From Actinokineospora spheciospongiae (lineage in GTDB: Bacteria; Actinomycetota; Actinomycetes; Mycobacteriales; Pseudonocardiaceae): DNA of 57,741 nucleotides. The stretch spans positions 1 to 57,741 of the forward strand of contig NZ_AYXG01000240.1 in NCBI RefSeq assembly GCF_000564855.1, in the 5' to 3' direction. The notes beneath the pieces were generated by a model. It worked only from the letters and a program-made list of their open reading frames with translations, searched no databases and was not told the DNA's origin. Positions 14,160-49,363 of the stretch are shown here, in pieces (position 1 is the first letter of the stretch; each line of letters starts with the position of its first letter). The position numbers were made by a program, and so were the translations under genes.

Positions 14160-15302
14160 GTGGAAATCACCGGTCCGGGTGACGTCGAGCCGCCTTCCGT
14201 GCGGGGGGACCGCGGCGGCGGCAGGGTGTCCGTTGTGTACTCACAGCACCCGGACGCCCTCCCCGAGCTGGCCGAACGGCTCAGCGGCCTCACGGTGCAC
14301 GACCCGGGCGGACCCGCGCAGTGCCTCGTCCGAACCGGTCAACTCCTCGTCCCGAGGGCGCGGGTGGAAGATGCCGCTCGCATTTTGCGGAGGTGGGTCG
14401 ACACCGTCGAAACCGACGGTCCGGGTCTGCTCCGATTGCGCCCCCCGGTCGCCGCCGACTGCGTGCGGATAGCCGCCGACGTGGCCGAGCGGGTCCCGGT
14501 CGCGGCCAACCACGTCCACCTCGTCGGCACCCCGGTCCTCCACGGGACCGGTGCCGTCCCCACCCCGGCCGACCCGCCCCCGCCACCTCCGCGGGAGGTG
14601 TGGGCGCCACCGGTCACGGTCACCCTGTTCGACACCGGCCTCGACCCGCACCCCTGGTTCGCCGACCGCCCCTGGTTCGACCCCGCCACCGCCGAACTCC
14701 TCGACGAGGACGCCGACGGCCACGCCGACCGCCAGGCGGGCCACGGCACCTTCGTCGCGGGCGTCCTCCTGCGCCACGCCCCCGGGGTCACCATCCGCGC
14801 CCACCGCGTCCTCACCCCCCGCGGCCTGACCGACGACCGGACCCTCGCCGCCGCCCTGCACCACGAGTCGACCCGCCCCCACCCCCACGTCATCGTGCTC
14901 ACCGCGGGCTGCCACACCGCCGACGACCGCTGCCCCCCGGTCCTCGCGGACGAACTGGCCCGCTTCCCCACCACCGCGGTCGTCGCCGCGGCGGGCAACA
15001 CCGGCACCACCCGCCCGTTCTGGCCCGCCGCGCTCCCCGGTGTGGTCGCGGTCGGCGCCTCGGCGCTCGACGGCTCACCCGCCCCCTTCACCAACCGCGG
15101 CCCCTGGGTCGACCGCCACGCCCCCGGCGTCGACGTCCTCAGCAGCCACGTCCGCCTCGCCGGGGGCATGCGCACCTTCGGCGCGGCCCGCTGGAGCGGC
15201 ACCTCCTTCGCCGCCCCCCGGGTCGCCGCCGAGATCGCCCGCGCCCGCCTCACGCCCCCACCACCCCCAGCACCCCGGGCCCGCGCCCACCCCGGTCCCT
15301 GA
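14160..15302 (+). CDS. S8 (subtilisin-like) serine peptidase without signal peptide
   Basis: A 380-aa protein. The first 130 residues form a separate alpha/beta-looking domain, followed by a PPPPPP linker and the subtilase domain. The triad is complete: Asp158 in LFDTGLDPH, His195 in GHGTFVAGV and Ser349 in SGTSFAAP, with the oxyanion Asn in AAAGNTGT. No signal peptide or transmembrane helix is seen, so it should act in the cytoplasm, unlike mycosins. A GTG 22 codons downstream is an alternative start. It converges on the TPR-CHAT gene and overlaps its 3' end by 53 bases, so the two proteases form one locus. Confidence 0.85.
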   Translation: MEITGPGDVEPPSVRGDRGGGRVSVVYSQHPDALPELAERLSGLTVHDPGGPAQCLVRTGQLLVPRARVEDAARILRRWVDTVETDGPGLLRLRPPVAADCVRIAADVAERVPVAANHVHLVGTPVLHGTGAVPTPADPPPPPPREVWAPPVTVTLFDTGLDPHPWFADRPWFDPATAELLDEDADGHADRQAGHGTFVAGVLLRHAPGVTIRAHRVLTPRGLTDDRTLAAALHHESTRPHPHVIVLTAGCHTADDRCPPVLADELARFPTTAVVAAAGNTGTTRPFWPAALPGVVAVGASALDGSPAPFTNRGPWVDRHAPGVDVLSSHVRLAGGMRTFGAARWSGTSFAAPRVAAEIARARLTPPPPPAPRARAHPGP

Positions 15303-17403
15303 CCGCGATCGGACTCCCCACCACCGTCTTGGCCCCCAGCCGGAGGAAGGCCAGCGGGAACCCGTAGGGGTGCCCCACCTCGCACGCCGCCAGCACCACC
15401 CGCTCGGGCCCCCGCCGGAGCCCACCGAGGTGGTGGGGGTGCAGCGTCCCGTCCCCCAGATCGATCCCGGGCGCCCCGGCGCGGTGGTGCCCGTGTGCGG
15501 CGATGTGCACCCACCCCGCCCGCCCGATCGCCTCCCGAGCGGCGTCGACGGTGGGCTCGACGAGGAGGGTGCCGCCGTGGGCGCGGTGCAGCGCGGTCAC
15601 CTCGGGCACGGCGTGGTCCAACCCCGGGCCGGCGATCCACAGGCGCGGCCCGGTCGGCTCGGGAGCGGCCTCGGCACGGCGGTAGGCGGCCACCGAGGGG
15701 GCGACGGTGATGCCACCGGGCAGCAGCCCCCACGGCAACCCCGCCAGGGCGGGCGTGGGCACGACCACGGTGCGGCGGCCTGCGGGCAGCCCCAACAACC
15801 GGGCGAACTCGACGGCAGCCTGGCGGGCGGATGACAGCCCGGCACCGGGCACACCGCAGGCCGGCAGGCCGGTGGGGAACAGCCCGGCAGTAGGCGGGCC
15901 GGGGGAGGCCTGGTTTGGGGGGACCAGGCCAGCGGTGGGCAGTCCGGGGGAGGCATGGCCTGCGGGGACCAGCCCGGCGTCCAGCAGACCTGGGGCAGGC
16001 ATGTCGGCGGGGGCCTCCCCGCTCGCGGAGTGTTCGGCGAGGACGGCGTGCCGGTGGAAGGCACGGGCGGCCGCGGTGATGCGAGCGGTGTCACCGATCT
16101 CTCGAAGGTCCGTAGTGGACAGTGCGAGCAGGGTGCCGCCCCGGTCGATGAGGACCACCAGCGCGGGGTCGTCGAGCGGCGCGGGCTCGGCGTCGTCACC
16201 GGTGTGCAGGGCCAGCAGCCGTTCGTTGCGCTCGTGCAGGTCCCGTGCCGTGCTCACCCTGGTGAGGGCGGACCTGGCCCGTTCGACGCGGGCGGGCGCG
16301 TCCACCCGAACCGCCCGGCGGGCCAGTTCGCGGGCCCGGGCGCCGAGTTCGGGCAGCCGGTGGTCCCGGAACAACTCGGCGGCCCGGGTGGCCGTCCGAG
16401 CGGCCGTCTCCCGGTCCCCGCCGCCCAAGGCGTGCTCAGCCCGAGCCAACAACGCCTCCGCGAACGCGGGCGCCCGCCCCGCCGCGGCCAACAACACCTC
16501 CGCCCTGGCCAACGTGGCATCAGCGGTGCGCACCAACCCCAACGCCAACTCCGACCGGGCGCGGTCGACCAACACCTCCGGCCACCGCCCCTCATCAACC
16601 CCCGAGGCCGCGTAGTGCTCCACGGCCCGCGCGTGCTCCCCCGCCTCAGCGGCGAGGAACCCCCGGTTGTGCACGCAGGTGGCCGCCCGCTCCACCTCTC
16701 CGATCCCGGCGTAGACCTCCCCGGCCTCCGCCAACGCCCGATCCGCCTCAGCGAACCGCCCCAGGTGCCCCGCGGCCACCCCCAACCCCACCAACGCGTT
16801 CGCCCGCCACCGCGGCTTCCCCGCCAACCCGGCCACCGCCACCGCCAACACACCGACCGCTTCCGCGTACCGCCCCGCCGCGCACTGGATCAACCCCCCG
16901 AGGCAGTCCGCCCGCACCACCCCACCCGCCCCCAACCCGGGCCGAGCGACCGCGATCAACGCCTCCGCCTCCGCGTCATCCCCCAACCGGTGCGACACCC
17001 ACGCCAACACCAACCGCGACTCGGCCCGCTCCCGCTCATCCCCCGCCACCGCGATCGCCGCCCGAGCCGCCCGCCGCGCCACCAGCGGCTCCCCCTCCTC
17101 CTGCCGCCGCACCGCCTCCGCGTGCCACTCCGCCCACGTCCGCAACTCCCCATCCCGCGGCCCCGCCCGCTCAGGACCTCGCGCGGCTCTCGACCGCCGG
17201 TCGCCCGCCCTCCGCGCCGACGTAGTCGTCTGCGCGGTCGTGCCCCCAGCCTTCACCTGCTTTTGCGTTCTCTCTACGTCCTGTGCCTGGGGGTGTTCCG
17301 CCAAGTCCTGCCCATCGCCGAACTGACCCGTCGGAGCTCGGCCCCCTGCCGCCGACCGCGCTCCCCGCACCGCGGCCCGGTTCCTGGCCACGCCCCCGCT
17401 CAC
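15250..17403 (-). CDS. TPR-CHAT caspase-like protease
   Basis: A 717-aa protein. Residues 1-85 are polar and probably disordered. Residues about 88-340 are helical repeats of TPR type (for example AVRRQEEGEPLVARRAARAA and GRFAEADRALAEAGEVYAGI). The CHAT cysteine peptidase domain is in the C-terminal half, with the catalytic pair in VHIAAHGHH (His about 637) and VVLAACEVG (Cys about 674). An insert of three 15-residue repeats divides the CHAT region. The protein ends only about 43 residues after the catalytic Cys, which is short for CHAT. The GTG start overlaps the stop of the 134-aa gene (GTGA), so sigma factor, small protein and protease form a coupled operon. Confidence 0.85.
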   Translation of the reverse strand: MSGGVARNRAAVRGARSAAGGRAPTGQFGDGQDLAEHPQAQDVERTQKQVKAGGTTAQTTTSARRAGDRRSRAARGPERAGPRDGELRTWAEWHAEAVRRQEEGEPLVARRAARAAIAVAGDERERAESRLVLAWVSHRLGDDAEAEALIAVARPGLGAGGVVRADCLGGLIQCAAGRYAEAVGVLAVAVAGLAGKPRWRANALVGLGVAAGHLGRFAEADRALAEAGEVYAGIGEVERAATCVHNRGFLAAEAGEHARAVEHYAASGVDEGRWPEVLVDRARSELALGLVRTADATLARAEVLLAAAGRAPAFAEALLARAEHALGGGDRETAARTATRAAELFRDHRLPELGARARELARRAVRVDAPARVERARSALTRVSTARDLHERNERLLALHTGDDAEPAPLDDPALVVLIDRGGTLLALSTTDLREIGDTARITAAARAFHRHAVLAEHSASGEAPADMPAPGLLDAGLVPAGHASPGLPTAGLVPPNQASPGPPTAGLFPTGLPACGVPGAGLSSARQAAVEFARLLGLPAGRRTVVVPTPALAGLPWGLLPGGITVAPSVAAYRRAEAAPEPTGPRLWIAGPGLDHAVPEVTALHRAHGGTLLVEPTVDAAREAIGRAGWVHIAAHGHHRAGAPGIDLGDGTLHPHHLGGLRRGPERVVLAACEVGHPYGFPLAFLRLGAKTVVGSPIAVRDRGGRGPGVLGVVGA
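15844..15978 (-). repeat. Three 45-bp tandem repeats inside the CHAT gene
   Basis: Three consecutive 45-bp units encode AGLVPAGHASPGLPT, AGLVPPNQASPGPPT and AGLFPTGLPACGVPG. The third is the most diverged, and a partial fourth (AGLSS) follows. They lie between the start of the CHAT region and its first core strands and probably form a flexible linker. Confidence 0.8.
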
Positions 17404-17804
17404 CCCAGCCACGACGTCACCAGCGGCACCCCACCGGCCCGGTGCAGCACGAACCGAACCCGCCCCCGGACCACCGGCCCGCCGAAGCTCCCCCCGGCGT
17501 CCACCGCGTACCGGGCCCCACCCGCCGCCCCCTGCGACTCCACCCGGGTGACCCCCAGTTCCGGCGCCACCACCCCGGTCACCTCGCCCCCCACCCGGAT
17601 GGTGATGTCCGGCTCCCGGGCCCACACCCGCGCGGTCCCCCGCATCAGCGGCACCGCGACCTCCTCGAGTTCGACCCGCTCCCACCGCACCCCCAGCAGG
17701 CTCCCCGCCACCACCGCCGCCTCCCGCACCCCGGCGGGCACCGGGTCGAGTCCGCTGAGCACCTCGCGCAGCTCGGCGAGCAGCCCGGCCTCGTCGTCCC
17801 TCAC
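17400..17804 (-). CDS. 134-aa protein of unknown function between sigma factor and CHAT protease
   Basis: I do not recognise a family. The N-terminal third is helical (LLAELREVLSGLDPVPAGVREAAVVAG). The rest is rich in beta-strand-like sequence and ends with VRGRVRFVLHRAGGVPLVTSWLG. It has no signal peptide or membrane helix. Both ends overlap neighbouring genes by four bases (GTGA), so it is made in ratio with the sigma factor and the TPR-CHAT protein. By position it is the best candidate for a partner of the sigma factor, an anti-sigma factor or a substrate of the protease; this is inference only. Confidence 0.75.
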   Translation of the reverse strand: MRDDEAGLLAELREVLSGLDPVPAGVREAAVVAGSLLGVRWERVELEEVAVPLMRGTARVWAREPDITIRVGGEVTGVVAPELGVTRVESQGAAGGARYAVDAGGSFGGPVVRGRVRFVLHRAGGVPLVTSWLG

Positions 17805-18352
17805 GCCGCCTCCCCGGGCACCCCGAGCAGCACCAGCCGCCGCCGCAACGCCTCCAGGCAGCGGCCGCGCGTCTTGGACACCGCGCTGCCAGACAGGCCC
17901 AGTACCCCGGACAGCTCCACATAGGTCAGTTCGGGTGCGAAAGACTGCAACGCCAACAGGTTCCGGCACCGCTCGCGCAGTCCGGCGAACGCCCGCCACA
18001 GCAGGTCGTCGCGTTCGCCGCGCAGTGCCACCTCCTCCGGGCGCCAGGTCTCGTCCCCGTCGACCCACTCGGCCCAGCGGTCCGTCACGGTCTCCCGGCC
18101 GCGCTCGCCGAGGACCCGCAGCGACTCGCGCCGGGCGGTGGTCGCCAGCCACGCGCCGACCCGGTCGGGTTCGCGCAGCCGCCCGATGTTCTCCGCCAGG
18201 CGCACCCAGGTCAGTTGGCTCACGTCCGCCGCGTCGGCCCGTTGCAGCCGGTGGGCCCGCGCCACCGCCCACACCAGGTCCGAGTACCGCCGCACCAGTT
18301 CCCGCCAGGCGTCCTGGTCGCCGCCCGCCGCCAGCGCCACCAAGTCCCGCAC
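17801..18352 (-). CDS. ECF-type RNA polymerase sigma factor
   Basis: A 183-aa sigma-70 family protein of ECF size. The sigma-2 region runs over WRELVRRYSDLVWAVARAH, then DAADVSQLTWVRL and VGAWLATTARRE, which contact the -10 and the polymerase core. The sigma-4 region has LRERCRNLLALQSF and the HTH YVELSGVLGLSGSAVSKTRGR for the -35. I chose the GTG with GGAGGT nine to ten bases upstream. The stop overlaps the next gene start (GTGA). No ordinary membrane anti-sigma factor is nearby; the operon continues into a small unknown protein and a protease. Confidence 0.88.
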   Translation of the reverse strand: MRDLVALAAGGDQDAWRELVRRYSDLVWAVARAHRLQRADAADVSQLTWVRLAENIGRLREPDRVGAWLATTARRESLRVLGERGRETVTDRWAEWVDGDETWRPEEVALRGERDDLLWRAFAGLRERCRNLLALQSFAPELTYVELSGVLGLSGSAVSKTRGRCLEALRRRLVLLGVPGEAA

Positions 18353-18424
18353 CCCGCACGCACCTCCGTCCGCTCCACCCCTCGTCAGCCCGTCCGACGG
18401 CGGGGTGCGGCGGGCGGCTCCCGG

Positions 18425-21082: not shown

Positions 21083-21712
21083 TTACTCAGGGAATGGGAA
21101 CACGGGAATAAATGCAGCCAGCGCGCTGGAGTCGCGGTTGACGTCATACTGGCGCAGCAAAGTGATGTAGTGAGCTTTGTCTATATTCCAATCATATCCA
21201 TGAAGTGTTTCGTCATCTTGTGTGGCAGCAAATACCAGGTCGGCGAGCAGGCGGGTTGTGCGACCATTTCCGTCGGTAAATGGATGAATTCTCACCAACT
21301 CGGCATGGACGGCGATGCCGAGTTCGCGCGGCGTCCAGTCCTGGGTGGTGTTCCAGCGGTACTGGATGCTGTCCAAGGCGTTGCGTAGGTCGACTGCGAT
21401 CTGCTCGGGAGCTACGCCGATGTTCAGTTCGCGTTTGCGGAAGCGTCCGGCCCACGTCCAGATGTCTCCGTACAACCGCTCGTGCAATTCGCGCACAAAC
21501 CCGTCATGCGGGAGATCTTGGAGCGCTAGTTCGTCGACGAGTACCTGGGTCAGCAGTTGCTCGGTGACCTCGTTTTGCAGTTCCTGCTCAAGGTCGAATA
21601 TCGCGGCCTTGTTGATGGGTGACCCGAGTGCTGTCCGTGCATCCGCGAGCAGTGCTTGCATCTCGTCGTCGGAAACGGGGGTCTCACCGTAGCCTGGCGT
21701 GAACGCGGTCAC
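21083..21712 (-). CDS. Fic-domain toxin (AMP transferase), class I with separate antitoxin
   Basis: A 209-aa protein with the complete Fic motif HPFTDGNGRTTR; the catalytic His is about residue 143. Fic enzymes transfer AMP from ATP to a Thr or Tyr of a target protein such as a topoisomerase. The part before the core (LHERLYGDIWTWAGRFRKRELNIGV) resembles that of the Fic-containing mobile mystery protein B group. It has no inhibitory motif of its own, which fits control by the small upstream protein. GTG overlaps that gene's stop (GTGA). GC content is visibly lower than in the flanks, a sign of transfer. Confidence 0.88.
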   Translation of the reverse strand: MTAFTPGYGETPVSDDEMQALLADARTALGSPINKAAIFDLEQELQNEVTEQLLTQVLVDELALQDLPHDGFVRELHERLYGDIWTWAGRFRKRELNIGVAPEQIAVDLRNALDSIQYRWNTTQDWTPRELGIAVHAELVRIHPFTDGNGRTTRLLADLVFAATQDDETLHGYDWNIDKAHYITLLRQYDVNRDSSALAAFIPVFPFPE

Positions 21713-48768: not shown

Positions 48769-49286
48769 GCACTCCACTCGATCAGGTCATCAAGGACGCA
48801 CTCGACGAGCGCGAGCTCGCCTACGACAACCCGGAACCCGGCCGCTTCCTGGTCGTGCTGCCCGGCATCAAGAAGCAGCAGACCAACTGCTGGTTGAGCG
48901 TCGGCAAGCACGCGCTGGTGGTCGAGGCGTTCGTCTGCCGCCGCCCGGACGAGGCGTTCGAGGAGGTCTACCGGTTCCTGCTGCGCCGCAACGCCCGCCT
49001 CTACGGCGTGCACTACACCGTCGACAAGGCAGGTGACATCTACCTGCTCGGCCGGGTCGGGCTGAACTCGGTGACCGCCGACGAACTGGACAAGCTGCTC
49101 GGGCAGGTCCTGGAGGCCGCCGACGGCGACTTCAACACCCTGCTGGAGATCGGCTTCGCCACCGCCATCCGCCGCGAGTGGGACTGGCGCACCTCCCGGG
49201 GCGAGTCGCTGGCCAACCTCAAGGCCTTCGAGCACCTGCTGGAGCCCGCGCAACGGTCGCGTGTCTCAGACGAGGCCGACTCGTGA
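48765..49286 (+). CDS. YbjN-domain protein (Rv0487-like)
   Basis: A 173-aa protein with the YbjN fold ([48 protein letters not shown] ... [12 protein letters not shown]). The domain resembles type III secretion chaperones and is thought to act in stress-related protein interactions. The GTG start overlaps the mshA stop, and the same order holds in mycobacteria. Confidence 0.87.
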
Positions 49287-49363
49287 CCGGCTCCCCGGCA
49301 ACGGGCTGACCCGGATGCCCCGTCCCACCGGTGATCGCACAGCTCACCTGAGGGGACACCGAG

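Follow-up and report, generated by a model that had tools for sequence, protein, structure and literature searches.

A putative protease-controlled ECF sigma factor switch with CHAT and subtilase genes in Actinokineospora spheciospongiae and other actinobacteria

The first 57,741 nucleotides of contig NZ_AYXG01000240.1 of Actinokineospora spheciospongiae (the whole of this stretch being the window hereafter) carry a set of four genes coding for an extracytoplasmic function (ECF) sigma factor, a small protein of 134 residues, a TPR-CHAT cysteine protease and a subtilase of the S8 family. This four-gene set is not unique to the window, but recurs across actinobacteria. The sequence data are best explained by an ECF54-type sigma switch under protease control, although this explanation is favoured tentatively and with slightly less than even confidence. 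According to PMC8999054, sigma factors of the ECF54 group have carboxypeptidase, subtilase and CHAT neighbours but no recognised anti-sigma factor, and a proteolytic control has been proposed for them; how such control may operate without a recognised anti-sigma factor is the question addressed here. In the proposed mechanism, the small protein would hold the sigma factor inactive with its helical N-terminal part, and its C-terminal beta part would present the small protein to the proteases. A signal perceived by the TPR repeats would activate CHAT, perhaps with or through S8, and CHAT (or S8) would then cut the linker of the small protein after Arg55. Finally, the freed sigma factor would transcribe its own operon from a promoter of the form GGGAGC-N17-CGTCYGA.

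Conservation of the gene set

A profile of the small protein found matches in 103 of the 394 genomes of the class. Among the 60 class-level loci picked because of such matches, one of them a second copy in the A. spheciospongiae genome, the sigma gene adjoins the small gene in 58, which indicates a pairing beyond chance; 44 of the loci hold CHAT, 41 hold S8 and 37 the complete set of four genes. A scan of named genomes seeded with the sigma factor gave at least 594 pattern matches, of which 530 were confirmed relatives, and in the best 80 of these loci the small gene is adjacent in 64, CHAT is found in 49, S8 in 43 and, again, the four genes together in 37. Many loci in both sets end at contig ends, and 58 of the 80 sigma-seeded loci reach at least 14 kb. 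Conservation of the association of sigma, small and CHAT genes across genomes, which an initial annotation of this DNA had put forward for checking, is therefore seen in the class-level as well as in the sigma-seeded loci. The sigma and small genes are often tightly packed, with 28 of the 61 measurable gaps between -10 and 0 bp and 27 of these at -4. Gene orders and strands are shuffled, as in S8-sigma-small-CHAT, sigma-small-S8-CHAT, or arrangements with CHAT and S8 on the opposite strand. Within the best 80 loci, the sigma and small genes were both called but non-adjacent only in L176 and the doubtful L231; in L176 (7001-12112) the small gene neighbours CHAT on the opposite strand and is separated from sigma by about 4 kb. 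A separate case is L139 (5069-6061), where one frame encodes both region 2 of sigma and the small protein and a different frame holds another piece of sigma, either by fusion or by a frame error.

A CHAT profile with a cut-off of E up to 1e-40 was run on the same 394 genomes and placed the family in 130 of them: 101 genomes have both the small protein and CHAT, 29 only CHAT, 262 neither, and 2 only the small protein, namely G330, with a borderline match, and G501, which is 75% complete (Fisher p ~3e-64, uncorrected for kinship). In 75 of the 101 genomes the two genes share a contig and are no more than 10 kb apart. Among the other 26, three (G281, G301 and G416) proved to be linked after all, since a fragment of CHAT flanks their small gene where the contig stops. 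Clear separation was established for at least 14 genomes: 12 with a CHAT stretch of at least 11 kb that holds neither sigma nor small gene, G323, where 11 kb around the small gene are free of CHAT, and G422, where the two genes are 3.5 Mb apart; in the remaining ones the genes may be linked or apart. The comparison covered 20 CHAT regions away from sigma, from 19 of the 26 genomes and from A. inagensis, and the three linked cases were then excluded. In 15 of the resulting 17 regions S8 adjoins the unlinked CHAT; as for the other two, in one CHAT runs off the contig, and L255 shows no S8 in 11.5 kb. Tandem S8 pairs adjoin the unlinked CHAT in L249, L254 and L266. Co-occurrence despite separation shows a set composed of two modules, sigma-small and S8-CHAT, which keep company across genomes, either linked or apart. 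Frequent separation of the genes, which had been set beforehand as an argument against the switch, is thus borne out only in part: CHAT lies away from sigma-small in these 14 or more of the 101 genomes, but is still present in them. A. spheciospongiae itself harbours a second and split set, with sigma-small on contig C2 (G000:C2:152-1173, L095) and S8-CHAT on contig C5 (L061:1153-5583).

The small protein and its linker arginine

Neither Pfam nor NCBIfam yields a match for the window small protein up to E = 1, and an NCBIfam search with the small-protein family gave nothing of weight. CarboxypepD_reg, however, matches 29 of 58 family members weakly (best E 4.1e-5), the window protein itself not among them. 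No relative came out of a single-protein search of the genome contigs with the window small protein. The family alignment comprises 58 rows, which are the window protein and 57 of the 65 extracted small proteins, leaving aside the weak-match rows L166, L179, L204, L206 and L230 and the close copies L183, L190 and L203. Read from this alignment, the small protein would consist of an N-terminal helical part, a length-variable linker and a C-terminal beta part similar to CarboxypepD_reg. Regarding features of zinc-site or membrane anti-sigma factors, the window protein has no cysteine and, on our own reading, no obvious hydrophobic segment. Small-protein matches inside frames of ~500-870 residues were taken as chance; the six examined (L056-L059, L063 and L064) resemble, on our reading, coupling proteins of the TraG/VirD4 type and have matches of 54-71 residues.

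A single arginine of the linker, Arg55 in the window, is kept in 122 members of a set of 123 non-identical small proteins, obtained by removing identical ones from 140 sequences that already excluded the five weak rows and L055, an over-long frame. Val precedes it in 94 of them and Gly, Ser or Ala follows in 115, whereas the linker itself varies from 5 to 16 residues before the arginine (one of 40) and from 6 to 15 between the arginine and a conserved column behind it. A near-invariant arginine in a linker of variable length points to recognition more than to a structural role, and Arg55 is the predicted cleavage point. The sole exception is a Thr in A. inagensis, which has lost CHAT and S8 at the locus but keeps the small protein unchanged at 12 of 13 further positions of high conservation. 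The arginine is also lacking in four of the five excluded weak rows, divergent proteins from Frankiales metagenome-assembled genomes (MAGs) in none of which CHAT gave a match, and L166 stops short of its position. On the other hand, six Arg-bearing proteins stand at loci without a called CHAT, and for L198, L203, L223 and L227 the genome has CHAT elsewhere (L174 and L205 are considered below). Of 16 genomes, in most of which the small protein bears the arginine but stands without an adjacent CHAT, 15 have the protease, the exception being the incomplete G501. The trend linking the arginine and CHAT would thus fit a cleavage site, though it is not clean. Literature searches, as far as the sources were available, showed no recognised account of the small protein, of its linker arginine or of a test of ECF54, although Casas-Pastor 2021 and Huang 2015 may cover part of it.

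Natural losses of the proteases

The genus offers natural cases of loss. Of 16 Actinokineospora genomes, 15 have window-type sigma and 13 carry S8 of the window type (E below 1e-150) along with a window-type CHAT at the locus, while the other 3, which are G152 (A. inagensis), G201 and G078, have neither of these proteases. In A. inagensis, sigma and a full-length small protein with Thr in place of Arg55 are retained. The G201 locus (L284, G201:C23:43000-55000) is decaying, with an intact sigma gene, an open reading frame (ORF) for the N-terminal part of the small protein only, a CHAT remnant and no S8. As to G078, no window-type gene is retained, but only the second-type sigma and CHAT. A further CHAT of the family (in pieces only in G244) and a second sigma match occur in all 16 genomes. 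Outside the genus, Actinophytocola algeriensis, A. oryzae and two Kutzneria show sigma followed by an N-terminal-only ORF with a DPVP motif, in 14.5 kb loci where neither CHAT nor S8 was called and in genomes with CHAT elsewhere. The N-terminal part of the small protein seems, therefore, to persist with sigma alone, and the linker and the C-terminal part to go with the protease-bearing loci.

Locus layout and proteases

The features of the window are collected in Table 1. The sigma/small and small/CHAT junctions each consist of a GTGA overlap, as seen in the nucleotide sequence and the translations. The three coupled genes of the initial annotation are confirmed in this way, as well as its His/Cys pair in CHAT and the absence of an ordinary anti-sigma gene: among the neighbouring ORFs of the window, none adjoining the set is a classical anti-sigma gene, and the gene before sigma is, on our reading of the ORF, an aminotransferase. 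That gene list was, however, incomplete, since the convergent S8 gene, whose 3' end overlaps that of CHAT by 53 bp, had been overlooked.

Table 1. Features of the four-gene set in the window
Feature	Position	Strand	Remarks
ECF sigma factor, 183 aa	17801..18352	-	TIGR02937 and Sigma70_r2 matches
Small protein, 134 aa, predicted anti-sigma factor or sigma partner	17400..17804	-	
TPR-CHAT cysteine protease, 717 aa	15250..17403	-	His637 and Cys674; PF12770 above cut-off
S8 subtilase	~14235..15302 (open frame starts 14160)	+	PF00082, 62.2 bits
Arg55 codon in the linker of the small protein, predicted cleavage site (V-R-G/S/A)	17640..17642	-	
ECF-type promoter-like site upstream of the sigma operon	18393..18422	-	GGGAGC-N17-CGTCGGA

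The sigma factor scores 80.4 bits with TIGR02937 against a cut-off of 42.9. A six-frame search with Pfam gave CHAT 33.8 bits against a cut-off of 24, although CHAT was missing from the hmmscan output for the protein sequence, in which TPR_12 stayed below its cut-off. The His/Cys dyad is kept in 34 of 34 aligned rows, L167 being excluded from the count for an out-of-frame CHAT end. The closest solved CHAT protein is PDB 8rot/8rw5 (E 4.6e-14), for which the literature search found no paper; PDB chains of the Csx29 type match at E ~1e-6, and separase is about equally close. The CHAT domain of the window is shortened at its C-terminus, a feature that the initial annotation had also missed and that is common to A. 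pegani (L047) and, through a shorter frame, to A. bangkokensis (L035); a frameshift behind this short end is not favoured because the sister species has the same one. A repetitive proline-rich insert of the window CHAT (15800-15990, minus strand) is not present in the aligned relatives. The invariant Asp at Cys+37 of the family consensus was considered as a mark of Arg specificity and dropped, as the Arg-binding Asp of human separase lies at Cys+41; the Cys+37 Asp is also present in 8rot.

The S8 triad (Asp158/His195/Ser349, counting residues in the open frame that starts at 14160) is invariant in 34 of 34 aligned rows, and no signal peptide is evident on our reading. A classification of S8 as a mycosin of type VII secretion systems finds no backing in TIGR03921, which gives 81.6 bits, below its cut-off of 278.75. 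Among PADLOC models, sigma and the small protein have no match, S8 matches a subtilase model (2.1e-10) and weakly IetS, and CHAT weakly BovA. Further away in the window, a 209-residue ORF (21083-21712, minus strand) contains HPFTDGNGR, which we take to be the motif of Fic proteins.

A promoter-like site before the sigma gene

The Actinokineospora sequences show, upstream of sigma, GGGAGC or a near form followed by 17 bases and CGTCYGA; the window copy is one mismatch from this genus consensus and in the same place as in the relatives. With as many as 2 mismatches allowed, the window taken alone holds 4 matches against 12 expected, which is not above chance. Within 250 bp before the sigma genes, the strict form occurs in L156-L165 (nine Actinokineospora and Herbihabitans) but not in L155, a count that is partly circular because the consensus was built from the same sequences. 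Across the 80-locus set (~2.1 Mb, both strands summed) the strict form has 11 matches, only one of them away from sigma. The exact form has 17 matches in the 16 genus genomes, 7 of them directly before sigma, versus 8 matches for the reversed control. An exact consensus match at 49266-49295 of the window (minus strand), at the 3' end of an opposite-strand ORF, is probably due to chance. Such a conserved site before sigma suggests autoregulation. Co-regulation of S8 by the same site is unsupported, since no strict match was found before 39 S8 genes, nor before 37 CHAT genes.

Comparison with known systems

Judged by its neighbouring genes, the set agrees with ECF54 as published. As described in PMC8999054, the sigma factor has no recognised anti-sigma factor and lies near carboxypeptidase, subtilase and CHAT genes; given the weak CarboxypepD_reg matches, the 'carboxypeptidase' of that neighbourhood probably corresponds to the small protein. 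In contrast to the group as described there, the small protein is here proposed as both restraint of sigma and substrate, and the modules are separable yet co-occurring.

A second parallel is the type III-E CASP/Craspase system, in which, according to PMC10028731, the N-terminal domain of Csx30 suffices for CASP-sigma binding and its C-terminal part serves as the recognition and cleavage target of Csx29. Both systems have a TPR-CHAT protein, an ECF sigma factor and an intermediary that, in our case presumably, combines a sigma-binding and a protease-facing part. They differ in that Csx30 has ~565 residues versus 134, and the subtilase is extra here; moreover, there is no RAMP gene and no sequence similarity to Csx30. 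In this regard, PF03787 was not found in the whole genome (a control matched in 4 of 14), as the initial annotation had stated of gRAMP/Cas7-11, and the profile of the 58 small proteins against PDB sequences gave only 6nav at E = 1 and none below. The Csx30-like role first suggested for the small protein agrees, then, with its apparent division into a part that stays with sigma and a remainder that goes with protease loci, but no sequence similarity accompanies it. The set may be read as a functional parallel to Csx30/CASP in its working, with no kinship implied, and a Cas-type origin was rejected on the absence of PF03787 and of any Csx30 match. On the other hand, proteolysis of RseA by DegS (PMC10028731) resembles the proposed switch in that a protease would cut the restraint of a sigma factor, but the small protein has no evident membrane segment and the proteases look cytosolic on our reading.

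Weighing of the alternative explanations

Several observations weigh against the proposed switch. The Fisher test overstates the co-occurrence because the genomes are related. No small protein was called beside sigma in 16 of the 80 sigma-seeded loci. The Arg55 exception of A. inagensis is a single lineage, whose genome retains another CHAT of the family, and the genomes of L205 (G646, a MAG of 3.0 Mb) and L174 (G648, 8.8 Mb) have the arginine but no CHAT at E up to 1e-15, although the linker of L174 is Arg-rich and its assignment ambiguous. The N-terminal-only ORFs, with dN/dS of 0.42 and 0.37 on 55 and 49 codons and flanks nearly as conserved, may be decaying, and selection on them is weakly supported. 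The CHAT domain is shortened at its end, and the P1 preference of CHAT cannot be read from its sequence. Lastly, the strict promoter stands before only 10 of 77 sigma genes and before no S8 gene.

The lack of a called small gene at those 16 loci speaks for the view stated for ECF54 in PMC8999054 that there is no anti-sigma factor and the proteases hold sigma at a low level by cutting sigma itself; the small protein would then be an adaptor presenting sigma to CHAT or S8, a role that we add to that view. This is rather unlikely, as it offers no account of the near-invariant linker arginine or of its loss where the proteases are gone. The small protein could also act on the proteases, with its beta domain as a pseudosubstrate or activator and a sigma factor that merely transcribes the set. 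The near-perfect co-occurrence of small protein and CHAT, even when apart (101 of 103), would be in keeping with this, the arginine could serve as the pseudosubstrate residue, and in L176 the small gene does sit beside CHAT and not sigma; nevertheless, in the split sets compared the small gene accompanies sigma instead of CHAT, non-adjacent cases in the best 80 loci are limited to L176 and the doubtful L231, and the N-terminal-only forms stay with sigma, all of which makes a role on the proteases unlikely.

The short CHAT end of the species and its sisters, the second sigma and second CHAT of all 16 genus genomes (the only ones in G078) and the loss of window-type proteases in related species raise another possibility, that the window holds a partly degenerate second copy and the split set on C2 and C5 is the working system. 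This appears distinctly improbable in view of the open and coupled frames and of the intact CHAT dyad and S8 triad. Descent from Csx30 or type III-E is already disfavoured and very hard to credit: the parts are of the same kinds and a similar sigma-binding/protease-facing split is described in PMC10028731, but there is no RAMP gene, no PDB chain comes below E = 1 for the small family, CHAT is nearer to 8rot than to Csx29 and about as near to separase as to the latter, and an S8 partner is present.

The protease-controlled switch thus keeps its place as the preferred explanation. A wider version of it, possible but doubtful, would be a CRISPR-free, actinobacteria-wide system where CHAT and subtilase, acting in series, cut a two-domain anti-sigma factor at a linker arginine and free an autoregulated ECF sigma factor, the type III-E CRISPR system being one case coupled to RNA sensing. 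In any case, if the small protein is indeed the restraint and Arg55 the cut site, a caspase-like control of transcription by CHAT proteases would be widespread in bacteria and not a CRISPR oddity.

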